In this document: positions 29,934-34,723 of the stretch, piece after piece
How the letters are laid out: every line of letters begins with the position of its first letter
Position numbering within the stretch: the stretch's first letter is position 1
NCBI GenBank assembly: GCA_029747015.1
Contig: JAKOGI010000053.1
Location: 1,456,001 to 1,520,000, forward strand
Source of the DNA: Carnegiea gigantea
Lineage: Eukaryota > Streptophyta > Magnoliopsida > Caryophyllales > Cactaceae
DNA: 64,000 nt
Direction: 5' to 3'
Notes under the pieces: generated by a model
Databases searched by the model: none
What the model was told of the DNA's origin: nothing
What the model saw: the letters and a program-made list of their open reading frames with translations, nothing else
Position numbers and translations under genes: made by a program

Positions 29934-30561
29934 TGTTAGGATTAATATCAGAGTAACAGTAATAGCGGAAGCGATAGGATGAGTTAGAGATTCAGAATTC
30001 AAGTGAATAACAGAAAACAGAAATAAGAAGACAAGAGATTTAACGTGGAAAACCCAATACGGGAAAAACCACGGACGGCGACAGCACCAGAACAATTCAC
30101 TATGAGCGAGAAGAATACAACACGATCACAATCACCACAGTGATTTGATCTAAGAGTAGAATTACAATCTCTCTATTGTAATCTCTCACAAAGTACTTCT
30201 ACCTCTCAATGTATGTATGAGTACTGGAGTCATTTAGATCATAGGCTTGACCCTCTTTATATAGGGTCTAAATAGTAGGGTTTCCCCCCTTAGCATGCAA
30301 CCCTAGCCGCCAGGTGGAATCCCTCCTCGAACAGAACCCTAACCGCCTTCCGAAAGAGGCGGCGTAAAAACATGGGGCACGACCGTGCCACGTGGCACGG
30401 TCACCCAGTGCCACATGGCACGGCCGTGCCACATGGCACGGCACCCCCGTGCCGTTTTTCTATCCTCTTCGACTGGACGTTCTTCGTCTTGACACGCCCG
30501 TGTCTTGTGTAGCACGGTCCCACCGTGCCGGTACTCGGATTTTGGGCCACGAAACCCAACA
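29934..30561 (-). repeat. E5 LTR 1
   Basis: 628 bp. It contains a minus-strand TATA box (TTTATATA at 30256-30263 on the plus strand) and a cluster of GTGCCAC palindromes at 30376-30460, including one extra 17-18-bp unit not present in the other two LTRs. The polypurine tract (ccaaggtggagat on the minus strand) follows at 30562. Confidence 0.92.
30382..30401. promoter_or_regulatory. 20-bp palindrome with G-box core in E5 LTR 1
   Basis: ACCGTGCCACGTGGCACGGT is a perfect 20-bp palindrome. Its CACGTG core is the plant G-box, the site bound by bZIP and bHLH factors. Equivalent sites occur in every LTR of E5 and E8 (32481, 34562, 54862, 59650). A regulatory role is inference. Confidence 0.7.
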
Positions 30562-30662
30562 ATCTCCACCTTGGACCAAAATCTCCAATCACTGCTTTCT
30601 GACTCCGTCATCGCAACCCGAAGTGTGACGCCCCTTCCAAGAGGTAATGCCCCGAAGGGCGC

Positions 30663-32006
30663 TCAAATACTGCGAATACCAACTAAGTCCAAGCAATGCT
30701 TGAACTTAGCTCTGGGAGATGACTTATATGAACTTTCCTTCATATAACCTGTCGCAGTAGATGCCTGCAAGACATTGAGGCCTCCTTGCCTCAAACCCTT
30801 CAGCAGAATCCTACTGTCTTTTGAGACCTTCAGAACTCCACCTTCAGCTGAATATTTGCACCCTTTAGATTCAAGGGTGCCCAACGAGATGAGGTTACGC
30901 TTCAAGTCAGGAACGTGATGAACATTCGATAGAGTCCTGACAACACCATCATGAGTCTTGATTTTAACAGTACCAATTCCAATTACATTACATTGGGAAT
31001 TGTTGCCCATGTGAACAACAGTTGAGTCAACTGGATCATATGTTGAAAACTAATCCTTGTGAGGACACAAATGATAGGTACACCTAGAATCAAGAATCCA
31101 ATCAGAATTGCTCCCCCCTTCAGTAGATGTAGGAAACAGAACGTCACCATCAGAATCAGATTCAGCAAACGAAGCTTCTGCAGGCTCCTGAGAATTATCT
31201 TCTTCTTTCTCCTTCTTCTTTTGCAGTTTCCAGCAGTTAGCAACAATATGATCCAATTTACCACAGTAATTGCAAGTCTTACCAGCATGAGGATTTTTAG
31301 ACTTAGAACGGTTCTTACTCCTATTACCGTTCCCCTTTTCAGTTGTTGTACCCCTTACTGCTAATCCCTCAATAGAATCAATATGAATGTCAAGATCAAA
31401 CTTCTTCTTAGACAATAGGTTTGACTTAACATCTTCAAACGATATAGTATTAGAATTACTATATAGCATAATCTCCTTAAAGTGTTTAGAAGAAGGGGGT
31501 AACGACACAATAAGCAAAATAGCCTTATCCTCATCCTCAACTTTCACATTTAGACTCTCTAAGTCAACAAGAATAGAGCTAAACTCATTCAAATGCTTTT
31601 GGACAGGGGTACCTTCAGCCATACAAAAGGTACACAACCTTTCCTTCAAACGGATCTTGTTGGCGAGACTCTTCGTCATGTAGAGTTCCTCCAGCCAAGC
31701 ATAAAGATCCACCGCAGTTGTCTTATCAAGCACCTCTCGCAAGACGTGTGGTGCCAAGTACAACTGTATGGCTGAAACCACTTTCAGCTCCAGTTTCTCC
31801 CATTCGTCCTCCGTCAACGACCCACGTCTCTTCTTCACATCTTCAGCCCACTGTTCTTCTGTTATCTTCTCAGGTTTCACGTGAGGTCCCTTCAGAACCT
31901 TCCACAACCCGTGTTGAATGAGAACTGCTCTCATCTGCACCTTCCAGAGATTAAAACTAATCTCCCCATCGAATTTCTGAATATCTACCTTCATGATAGA
32001 AGACAT
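30663..32006 (-). pseudogene. E5 gag-protease, copy 1 (one stop)
   Basis: The frame starts at 32006 (MSSIMKVDIQKFDGEISF), shortly after the primer site. It encodes a Gag domain (WLEELYMTKSLANKIRLKER), a Lys/Arg-rich stretch, and the knuckle CNYCGKLDHIVANC near 31275-31240. Next comes the protease motif WILDSRCTYH, where the usual Gly after Asp-Ser is Arg. A TAG at about 31050 stands where copy 2 has Trp, ending the first 318 codons. The same frame then continues through KIKTHDGVVRTL and GLRQGGLNVLQ to a fused C-terminus AKFKHCLDLVGIRS, which is the RNase H end of E8. Apart from that stop the frame is open, about 447 codons in all. It would make Gag but no enzymes. Confidence 0.88.
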
Positions 32007-32013
32007 CCTATAA

Positions 32014-32030
32014 CCAAAGCTCTGATACCA
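32014..32030 (-). promoter_or_regulatory. E5 primer-binding site, interior 1
   Basis: Minus strand reads TGGTATCAGAGCTTTGG, two bases after the middle LTR. The first 12 bases match plant initiator-Met tRNA. E8 has the same site with one or two differences (GAGTTTTGG). Confidence 0.9.
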
Positions 32031-32032
32031 CT

Positions 32033-32646
32033 TGTTAGAAATAATATCAGAGTAACAGTAATAGCGGAAGCGATAGGATGAGTTAGAGATTCAGAATTCA
32101 AGTGAATAACAGAAAACAGAAATAAGAAGACAAGAGATTTAACGTGGAAAACCTAATACGGGAAAAACCACGGACGGCGACAGCACCAGAACAATTCACT
32201 ATGAGCGGGAAGAATACAACACGATCACAATCACCACAGTGATTTGATCTAAGAGCAGAATTATAACCTCTCTATCGTAATCTCTCACAAAGTACTTCTA
32301 CCTCTCAATGTATGTATGAGTACTGGAGTTATTTAGATCCTAGGCTTGACCCTCTTTATATAGGGTCTAAACGGTAGGGTTTTCCCCCTTAGCATGCAAC
32401 CCTAGCCGCCAGGTGAAATCCCCCCTCGAACAGAACCCTAACCGCCTTCCGAAAGAGGCGGCGTAAAAACACGGGGCACGACCGTGCCACGTGGCACGGT
32501 CACCCAGTGCCACATGGCACGCACGGCACACCCGTACCGTTTTTCTGTCCTCTTCGACTGGACGTTCTTCGTCTTGACACGCCCGTGTCTTGTGTAGCAC
32601 GGTCTCACCGTACCGGTACTTTGATTTTGGGCCACGAAACTCAACA
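32033..32646 (-). repeat. E5 LTR 2 (shared middle LTR)
   Basis: 614 bp. It serves as 5' LTR of interior 1 and 3' LTR of interior 2 and has no target duplication at its edges. The G-box palindrome is at 32481-32500 and the minus-strand TATA at 32355-32362. Confidence 0.92.
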
Positions 32647-32747
32647 ATCTCCACCTTGGACCAAAATCTTCAATCACTGCTTTCTGACTCTGTCATCGCA
32701 CCCCGAAGGGTAACGCCCCTTCCAAGGGGTAATGCCCTGAAGGGCGC

Positions 32748-34089
32748 TCAAATACTGCGAATACCAACTAAGTCCGAGCAATGCTTGAACTTAGCTCTGG
32801 GAGATGACTTATATGAACTTTCCTTCATATAACCTGTCACAGTAGATGCCTGTAAGACATTGAGGCCTCCTTGCCTTAAACCCTTTAGCAGAATCCTACT
32901 GCCCTTTGAGACCTTCAGAACTCCACCTTCAGCTGAATATTTGCACCCTTTGGATTCAAAGGTGCCTAACGAGATGAGGCTACGCTTCAAGTCAGGAACG
33001 TGACGAGCATTCGATAGAGTCCTGACAACACCATCATGAGTCTTGATTTTAACAATACCAATTCCAATTACATTACATTGGGAATTGTTGCCCATGTGAA
33101 CAACAGTTGAGTCAACTGGATCATATGTTGAAAACCAATCCTTGTGAGGACACATACGATAGGTACACCCAGAATCAAGAATCCAATCAGAATTGCTCCC
33201 CCTTCAGTAGAGGTAGCAAACAGAACGTCACCATCAGAATCAGATTCAGCAAACGAAGCTTCTGCAGGCTCCTGAGAATTATCTTCTTCTTTCTCCTTCT
33301 TCTTTTGCAATTTCCAGCAGTTAGCAACAATATGACCCAATTTACCACAGTAATTGCAGGTCTTACCAGCATGAGGATTTTTAGACTTAAAACGGTTCTT
33401 ACTCCTATTACCGTTCCCCTTTTCAGTTGTTGTACCCCTTACTGCTAATCCCTCAGCAAAATCAGCATGAATGTCAAGATCAAACTTCTCCTTAGACAAC
33501 AGGTTTGACTTAACATCCTCAAATGATATAGTATTAGAATTACTATATAGCATAATCTCCTTAAAGTGTTTATAAGAAGGGGTAACGACACAACAAGTAA
33601 AATAGCCTTATCCTCATCCTCAACGTTCACATCTAGACTCTCCAAGTCAACAAGAATAGAGTTAAACTCATTCAAATGCTTTTGGACAGGGGTACCTTCA
33701 GCCATACGAAAGGTATATAACCTTTCCTTCAAACGGATCTTGTTGGCAAGACTCTTCGTCATCTAGAGTTCCTCCAGCCGAGGCCAAAGATCCACCGCAG
33801 TTGACTTATCAAGCACCTCTCGCAAGACATGTGGTGCCAAGCACAACTGTATGGCTGAAACCGCTTTCAGCTCCAGTTCCTCCCATTCGTCCTCCGTCAA
33901 CCACCCACGTCTCTTCTTCACATCTTCAGCCCACTGTTCTTCTGTCATCTTCTCAGGTTTCACGTGAGGTCCCTTCAGAACCTTCCACAACCCGTGTTGA
34001 ATGAGAACTGCTCTCATCTGCACCTTCCAAAGATTAAAACTAATCTCCCCATCGAATTTCTGAATATCTACCTTCATGAGAGAAGACAT
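32748..34089 (-). pseudogene. E5 gag-protease, copy 2 (several lesions)
   Basis: Same organisation as copy 1: start at 34089 (MSSLMKVDIQKFDGEISF) and C-terminus AKFKHCSDLVGIRS at about 32755. An in-frame TAG after WPRLEEL near 33763, a frameshift near 33585 and another near 33199 (one C fewer than copy 1) interrupt it. The knuckle is CNYCGKLGHIVANC. Here the protease motif keeps DSG but the following His is Arg. The two copies have therefore decayed independently since they were duplicated. Confidence 0.87.
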
Positions 34090-34096
34090 CCTATAA

Positions 34097-34113
34097 CCAA
34101 AACTCTGATACCA
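34097..34113 (-). promoter_or_regulatory. E5 primer-binding site, interior 2
   Basis: Minus strand reads TGGTATCAGAGTTTTGG, identical to the site of E8 at 55351-55367. Confidence 0.9.
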
Positions 34114-34115
34114 CT

Positions 34116-34723
34116 TGTTAGGAATAATATCAGAGTAACAGTAATAGCGGAAGCGATAGGATGAGTTAGAGATTCAGAATTCAAGTGAATAACAGAAAAC
34201 AGAAATAAGAAGACAAGAGATTTAACGTGAAAAACCCAATACGGGAAAAACCACTTACGGCGACAGCACCAGAACAATTCACTATGAGCGGGAAGAATAT
34301 AACACGATCACAATCACCACAGTGATTTTCTAAGAGCAGAATTACAACCTCTCTATTGTAATCTCTCACAAAGTACTTCTACCTCTCATTGTATGTATGA
34401 GTACTGGAGTTATTTAGATCCTAGGCTTGACCCTCTTTATATAGGGTCTAAACAGTAGGGTTTTCCCCCTTAGCATGCAACCCTAGCCGCTAGGTGGAAT
34501 CCCCCCTCGAACAGAACCCTAACCGCCTCCCGAAAGAGGCGGCGTAAAAACACGGGGCACGACCGTGCCACGTGGCACGGTCACCCTGTGCCACATGGCA
34601 CGGCACCCCCGTGCCGTTTTTCTGTCCTCTTCGACTGGACGTTCTTCATCTTGACACGCCCGTGTCTTGTGTAGCACGGTCCCACTGTGCCGGTACTTGG
34701 ATTTTGGGCCACGAAACCCAACA
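34116..34723 (-). repeat. E5 LTR 3
   Basis: 608 bp. G-box palindrome at 34562-34581, minus-strand TATA at 34436-34443. The outer edge is followed by CTATC, the target duplication. Confidence 0.92.

Follow-up and report, generated by a model that had tools for sequence, protein, structure and literature searches.

A tandem Gag-protease copia retrotransposon of Carnegiea gigantea and its mixed concatemers joined at the primer-binding site

Introduction

Whether the tandem retrotransposons with long terminal repeats (LTRs) that are widespread in plants arise by chromosome recombination or before insertion is open in print (PMC11899658). The question is raised by a composite at positions 29934-34723 of a 64,000-nucleotide window of the Carnegiea gigantea genome (GenBank assembly GCA_029747015.1, contig JAKOGI010000053.1, positions 1,456,001 to 1,520,000), in which a copia element encoding only Gag and protease is arranged as LTR-interior-LTR-interior-LTR on the minus strand. 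We conclude, with a probability of roughly 0.68, that this composite is one insertion of a ready-made, concatenated cDNA carrying two Gag-protease copies. The evidence comes from the anatomy of the locus, from the divergence of its parts, and from mixed concatemers elsewhere in the genome whose units are joined at one site only.

Anatomy of the composite and its insertion site

The composite and its flanks comprise the following features.

29929-29933, no strand: target-site duplication (TSD) CTATC, left copy, from alignment and empty paralogous sites
29934-30561, minus: 3' LTR (C), 628 bp
30562-32032, minus: interior I2, 1471 bp, with primer-binding site (PBS), gag-protease open reading frame (ORF), deletion junction, RNase H tail, 3' untranslated part and polypurine tract (PPT)
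30711-30746, minus: 36-base (12-codon) segment at the I2 deletion junction, recognisable in 11 database proteins
32020-32032, minus: PBS of I2; the PPT of I2 adjoins 30562
32033-32646, minus: middle LTR (B), 614 bp, no duplication at its flanks
32647-34115, minus: interior I1, 1469 bp, with PBS at 34103-34115
32796-32831, minus: 36-base junction segment of I1, same as in I2
34116-34723, minus: 5' LTR (A), 608 bp
34724-34728, no strand: TSD CTATC, right copy

All three LTRs have TG...CA ends. Both interiors begin with AGTGGTATCAGAG, which we take to be the usual tRNA-iMet PBS of copia elements, and both finish in a purine-rich tract against the following LTR, so that PPT and PBS abut the middle LTR directly, with no duplication flanking it. 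The two halves of the composite are 95% identical across an alignment of 2713 bp, which rules out chance. Three LTRs and two interiors within one outer TSD and without an inner one are the arrangement of tandem LTR retrotransposons and of template-switching complexes, and LTRs, PBS, PPT and a 5-bp TSD, the framework of a TR-GAG element, are all present, here as three LTRs and two units.

The right flank (window 34724-35524) was searched against the plant's own genome (1.135 Gb, 5575 contigs). It gave 22 matches, every one on contig C53 and 21 of them beyond the window's own; the longer of these further stretches are 74-89% identical and form a local duplicated family. When two paralogous copies of the flank (L043 and L044, contig C53) were read across the site, the composite was absent from both, a single CTATC standing in one and CTATT in the other. 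The initial annotation of this DNA had described three LTRs and two interiors sharing a single outer CTATC with none at the middle LTR, and the abutting PPT and PBS together with the two empty sites bear this out. A 279-bp element resembling the miniature TRIM and SMART retrotransposons lies beside the composite at 29523-29801, with 72-bp LTRs about 86% alike, a PBS-like TGGTATCAGAGCC and flanks GCAAG/GCAGG; it is likewise missing from both empty sites.

Recombination between two neighbouring independent insertions, or an assembly error, is an extremely improbable source of the composite, for the outer TSD copies match, the empty sites reveal no lost host DNA, the units are 4.5% apart, too much for a duplication artefact, and another tandem, flanked by a TSD of its own, is present in the genome (locus L045, below).

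The deletion junction and further tandems in the genome

We searched the genome with a 32-base junction probe made of the 3' half of the junction segment and the RNase H tail. It matched 909 places, against 0 for the control, a count that excludes the window's full-length relative F (more than 3 bases different) and that would also include any unseen full-length relative carrying that tail; the deletion is therefore not an assembly error unique to the window. Among the 100 exact matches listed of these 909, five loci, the window included, had same-strand pairs 2002-2089 bp apart. L045, one of the four others, was read and proved to be LTR-interior-LTR-interior-LTR with TSD ACAAT, its LTRs 1.3-1.5% and its interiors 0.9% different. 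The tandem form had been thought unusual, a view that these loci contradict for this genome.

Two further spacings were seen. At C50:1415132, 1416315 and 1417498 (plus strand), three junction places follow one another at a spacing of exactly 1183 bp, which points to a tandem of shorter units, and on C84 two places among the 100 exact matches listed lie 2578 bp apart.

Tandem and insertion are of similar age

LTR pairs of the window differ at 22/608, 22/608 and 24/614 positions (3.6-3.9%), I1 and I2 at 66/1469 (4.5%), and the LTRs of F at 21/629. Single-base variation affects 34 LTR sites; 33 of them polarise, every one as a change private to one LTR, and one is unpolarised. At the 33 polarised sites the middle LTR has no derived base in common with either outer LTR. 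A short repeat near LTR alignment position 122 also varies, A being as F and B and C longer, which could reflect a single change that B and C have in common or two separate ones. The ratio of interior to LTR divergence is 1.24 (exact 95% interval 0.76-2.11), by which the duplication has at least about three quarters of the age of the insertion and the element was a single copy for at most about a quarter of its life. Without shared derived sites, the single-copy phase is bounded at about 0.27 of the insertion's age. Because the three LTRs and two interiors diverge alike, tandem and insertion are about equally old. If substitutions accumulate at 7e-9 to 1.3e-8 per year, the insertion happened about 1.4-2.7 million years ago, and that of F at about the same time.

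These figures bear on a rather unlikely alternative, in which a single Gag-protease element inserted and an early unequal LTR-LTR crossover, between sister chromatids or homologues, duplicated its interior. Such a mechanism has been proposed (PMC11899658) and is compatible with the single outer TSD. The middle LTR, without a shared derived base, and the interiors, no closer than the LTRs, speak against it; any crossover must therefore have fallen early in the insertion's life.

Mixed concatemers are joined at the PBS and not at the PPT

Units of three kinds can be told apart: Gag-protease (G), full-length (F) and a third unit, T, with an LTR of 182 bp (LTR_T) and an interior of 246 bp (INT_T), a PBS and a PPT. 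T has the make-up of a terminal-repeat retrotransposon in miniature (TRIM), a name that rests on its anatomy, with non-coding status judged from interior length only. T units were found joined with G or F units within single insertions. L009 reads LTR_T-INT_G-LTR_G (TSD TATAG); L016, an inverted piece followed by LTR_G-INT_T-LTR_T-INT_G-LTR_G (TSD ACATA); L010, G followed by inverted and direct T (TSD GATAA); and L017 with L041, T-F-T with inverted T units (TSD TATAT). Perfect TSDs thus flank 4/4 heterologous insertions with both ends read. Nested insertion was rejected as the source of these composites, there being no inner TSD.

Across the window and 22 loci over 8 kb, heterologous joints made up 11/29 of those at the PBS and 0/32 of those at the PPT (Fisher p 8e-5). 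Genome-wide joint probes, which admitted up to 3 mismatches, so that more diverged joints were missed, and whose reversed controls gave 0 in each case, found 71 LTR_G|PBS-INT_T and 82 LTR_T|PBS-INT_G joints (153 in total). With the same tolerance, heterologous PPT joints numbered 0 for INT_T|LTR_G and 0 for INT_G|LTR_T, against 497 INT_T|LTR_T and 1272 INT_G|LTR_G homotypic PPT joints (1769 in total). Two apparent INT_T|LTR_G joints fell on the same places as INT_G|LTR_G and hence were not counted.

Ten of the 71 LTR_G|INT_T joints, three of them from one array, were cut out as loci. The LTR_G end precedes INT_T in all ten; in nine the match spans all 628 bp of LTR_G, in L035 only the last 71 bp; after INT_T comes LTR_T in nine, and L035 switches interior to INT_G. 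Of the 82 LTR_T|INT_G joints, nine lie within loci that were read. Altogether the heterologous joints form 108 clusters, with 29 pairs whose spacing is that of LTR_G-INT_T-LTR_T-INT_G.

LTR-LTR recombination was set aside as the source of the mixed joints, since blastn scans found no similarity between G and T LTRs. An early crossover between such dissimilar LTRs cannot yield LTR_T-INT_G-LTR_G or LTR_G-INT_T-LTR_T-INT_G-LTR_G within one TSD. The restriction of mixed joints to the PBS favours concatenation during reverse transcription over later LTR-LTR crossing-over. Recombination after insertion and insertion as a tandem had both been put forward for the window; tandem insertion fits the divergence and the mixed joints better, and recombination is disfavoured.

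A proposed route by strand transfer at a shared PBS

A ready-made concatemer could be made as follows. A virus-like particle would pack several RNAs; a growing cDNA, due to close on its own PBS copy, would instead transfer to the PBS of another template; two cDNAs would so become linked via one common LTR; and integrase would integrate the linked product once, leaving a single 5-bp duplication. In the RNA each interior runs on into its own 3' LTR, and it is through the PBS that an LTR joins the interior after it; strand transfer at a common PBS explains the joint rule. For the copia element Tnt1, experiments support both template switching and mobilisation in trans (PMC2923131). We infer co-packaging, the identity of the helper, and the same route for the window's homotypic tandem as for the heterologous ones. 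That an autonomous copia element, its Gag-protease partner and the TRIM share particles, and form concatemers by strand transfer at their common tRNA-iMet PBS, we hold at even chances.

The other route to a ready-made concatemer starts from a one-LTR circle or an older tandem whose weak terminator is passed during transcription, the resulting tandem RNA being reverse transcribed whole. It has been suggested with reference to the weak terminator of Tnt1 (PMC11899658) and is compatible with the star-like divergence and the single TSD, and existing composites, with their shared INT_T variants, probably propagate so. Alone, it accounts neither for the first G-T heterologous joint nor for the segments that L010, L016 and L017 hold in inverted orientation, and as the source of the window's tandem we think it quite unlikely. 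Of the two routes strand transfer is the likelier; the odds stated for a ready-made concatemer take in both and so overlap with those of the tandem RNA.

Several points weigh against a ready-made concatemer joined by PBS transfer. Unequal crossing-over soon after insertion would give the same divergence pattern, and if the one unpolarised LTR site is taken as shared, the single-copy bound becomes 0.43 instead of 0.27. In L045, the informative LTR sites are few and mixed (2 common to the outer LTRs, 1 to A and B), and its interiors are somewhat closer than its LTRs, which leans towards an early crossover within wide error. PBS transfer would be carried over to the window by analogy with the heterologous cases, because the window's LTRs were too alike at birth to reveal the transfer point. 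The genome-wide counts cover homotypic joints at the PPT only, and the events behind the 153 heterologous joints are fewer than that number: deletion variants of INT_T are common to L031, L037 and L042, and some composites were therefore amplified. Finally, L024 with L030 (C47:1140400-1150000) and L042 (C61:1453700-1459410) are alternating Gag-protease/TRIM arrays with a period of about 2.5 kb, the former running into an N stretch and the latter to the contig end, so that either may be longer than the assembly shows. They resemble crossover-expanded composites, and crossing-over probably added units to both.

Coding content and a likely two-step deletion

Pfam searches with pieces of both units detected Retrotran_gag_2 (PF14223) and Pol_BBD, the latter of which we take to be the copia protease. 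The usual copia protease motif, DSG, is present in I1 and in the database protein P0002, and DSR in I2 and F. Each interior thus encodes copia Gag and a protease that carries, as a fusion, the final ~15 residues of RNase H, and both units terminate in ..AKFKHCxDLVGIRSI-stop, resembling the RNase H end of F. By Pfam and by the deletion relative to F, there is no reverse transcriptase (RT), integrase or RNase H domain. Both window units are broken, the I2 ORF by one in-frame stop and the I1 ORF by one stop and two single-base gaps; P0002 is an uninterrupted 439-aa Gag-protease with the same junction, so the family does hold an intact Gag ORF. The domain hits, the alignment and the shared tail uphold the earlier description of Gag-protease-only interiors that retain RNase H tail, PBS, PPT and a common deletion. 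The family is of the TR-GAG type: it keeps LTRs, PBS, PPT and a Gag-protease frame, without integrase, RT and most of RNase H.

That deletion had also been called clean. The same deletion does occur in both interiors, but the 36-base segment sits between protease and RNase H tail in each. The junction recurs in 11 database proteins (P0002, P0072, P0094 and P0096-P0103), ten of them among 24 listed in one protein search and P0002 from another search listing 94; P0072, P0102 and P0103 have the same junction followed by a different last stretch. In P0104 and P0106 a longer form is present, and it aligns with the start of gag_pre-integrase in full-length elements, with shuffle p values of 0 to 0.036 across 24 comparisons. 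Given this longer stretch, the segment was taken for a remnant of that start, and the idea that it is foreign filler was dropped. The link from P0104/P0106 to the 12 residues of the window is weak: with the P0002 tail, shuffling confined to these residues gave p 0.12 and 0.11. A database search found no third protein with the longer form. Because P0104 and P0106 carry that form, the deletion likely arose in two steps. Searches of viral and prokaryote collections found no relatives of P0002.

The Gag-protease family and selection on its frame

To survey the family, 20 regions were taken around the best LTR hits, picked by score and not as a random sample. They held seven simple Gag-protease elements (L013, L014, L019, L020, L022, L023, L027), five elements with pol (L011, L012, L015, L017, L026; L017 is also a mixed insertion), four lone LTRs (L018, L021, L025, L028), three mixed insertions without pol (L009, L010, L016) and one alternating array (L024). 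The TSD is perfect in 5/7 simple elements (that of L014 within an AT repeat), has one mismatch in L013 and is lacking in L022. LTR pairs of five simple elements have K 0.041-0.063; those of L014 and L020, although both carry a TSD, are far more diverged (0.13-0.16).

Selection was examined in the gag-protease region of 17 units, two of them partial, after excluding 25 changes confined to one locus. Changes common to several loci comprised 41 nonsynonymous or stop and 44 synonymous, compared to 196 and 90 among changes seen once (Fisher p 0.0008). From these counts, the Gag-protease frame was under selection after the deletion. With indels ignored, 7/17 units, including the partial ones in the denominator, are stop-free in the reference frame.

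The full-length relative F and the mosaic

The relative with which the units were compared lies in the same window.

54715-54719 and 60137-60141: TSD ACATG of F
54720-60136, plus: full-length copia relative F, with gag, protease, integrase, RT and RNase H regions; its pol contains stops
54720-55348 and 59508-60136, plus: LTRs of F

Pfam detected rve and RVT_2 in F; its RNase H piece, without a Pfam hit, was placed by position and alignment. The gene order gag-protease-integrase-RT-RNase H in F, with PF14223 in the gag-only units, assigns them to Ty1/copia.

F and the Gag-protease family have LTR, PBS, leader, gag N-terminus and 3' end in common. Their LTRs are 0.92 identical (aligned bases, gaps left out), gag residues 1-140 are 0.88 identical and the 3' ends match at 129 and 131 of 149 bases, while the protease half reaches only 0.59-0.64, next to 0.39-0.59 for seven more distant proteins. 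Along the interior, DNA identity of F with I1/I2 drops from 0.97 to about 0.62, LTR and 3' end staying alike, and synonymous divergence climbs from about 0.2 to saturation along gag-protease. An F-like protein, P0003, shows the same course against P0002 (0.89 in gag 1-140, 0.46 beyond residue 250), compared to 0.82 and 0.79 against F. Strong conservation of the gag N-terminus was rejected as the cause, F being only 0.53-0.62 identical there to the seven distant proteins (P0014, P0015, P0017, P0018, P0024, P0026 and P0036, four of which carry plant names) versus 0.88 to the gag-only units; that range leaves out P0003 (F-like, 0.82) and P0040 (31 residues only).

In the protease tree, the gag-only group (100/99; it includes P0037, P0104, P0106, P0109 and P0117) stands apart from a three-member F group (99/95). 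The gag tree places both groups in one clade (100/99) that is poorly resolved inside, with labels mixed in the best tree yet kept apart in 78% of bootstrap trees. By these trees, the contrast in depth between gag and protease is clear, and intermixing is not supported. The mosaic is consistent with exchange between co-packaged lineages, which has been argued for RLC_Angela (PMC9744471), and with partner systems where Gag comes from one of the two sides (PMC11302176). Because LTR and gag N-terminus agree and the protease half does not, F is likely a helper type for the Gag-protease family and not its direct parent; the clear parental family once claimed gives way to a mosaic. With ends in common and a similar insertion age, the Gag-protease units were presumably moved in trans by F-type enzymes, judging from sequence comparison.

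Other repeats in the window

Immediately before F, at 47652-54719, a repeat pair of ~820 bp (47652-48474 and 53046-53855) has an integrase fragment between its members and interrupts an older repeat, of which a further copy is found at 13493-15510; these are probably nested insertions. Direct repeats with units of ~0.5-0.7 kb, 91-99% alike, occupy 61160-64000, up to the window end.

Discussion

The units of the composite have the anatomy that Inpactor demands of TR-GAGs, namely LTRs, PBS, PPT, TSD and only Gag or Gag with aspartic protease (PMC6022998). Unlike those TR-GAGs, the window's family retains a fused RNase H tail and forms homotypic and mixed concatemers. A TR-GAG transposed in Arabidopsis ddm1, where a similar, potentially autonomous element is present in the genome (PMC8704663).

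Tandem LTR retrotransposons were reported by the IDENTAM study from rice, Arabidopsis, almond and cotton, with the mechanism left open and with the same LTR-interior-LTR-interior-LTR order and single outer TSD in two loci described (PMC11899658); here, by comparison, the element is a non-autonomous copia, there are empty paralogous sites, and heterologous concatemers inform on mechanism. Template-switching complexes of Triticeae likewise have three LTRs, two interiors, a TSD and outer LTRs alike, and were proposed to form during reverse transcription (PMC1950507). That model involves a switch in the R region and chimeric LTRs, whereas here G and T have the PBS in common and the mixed-joint LTRs are whole in most loci read; the window's own LTRs are too alike to show a switch point within R. 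Tandem TRIMs (PMC4717578) and Cassandra arrays (PMC7215508) are also arrays of LTRs and interiors, some with TSDs and some with inverted units (PMC4717578), but, as described there, of one TRIM kind; here the TRIM alternates with Gag-protease or full-length copia units.

The pairing of F with the Gag-protease family recalls RLG_Cereba and RLG_Quinta, an autonomous element and a partner, Quinta, supplying GAG (PMC11302176), and, in its conflict of phylogenies, the RLC_Angela partners, whose LTR and interior phylogenies disagree and for which gene conversion or template switching has been offered (PMC9744471). Cereba and Quinta are Gypsy elements and the ORFs of non-autonomous Angela are degenerate, whereas here selection acted on the Gag-protease frame of a copia element. 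Both TR-GAGs and tandem LTR elements have been described before; what is new here is that unlike units form concatemers, and the rule that their joints follow. In the open-access literature searched, no paper covered both TR-GAG and tandem LTR elements, and no report of heterologous TRIM/TR-GAG concatemers with a PBS-only joint rule was found.

Since the Gag-protease, full-length and TRIM units are distinguishable and joined at one site only, the origin of tandem LTR elements becomes testable in existing genomes. If the reading given here is true, that question would be settled for this Gag-protease family, and the genome-wide joint rule would be a readable fossil record of PBS strand transfer. 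It suggests that non-coding, Gag-protease-only and full-gene elements travel in the same particles.

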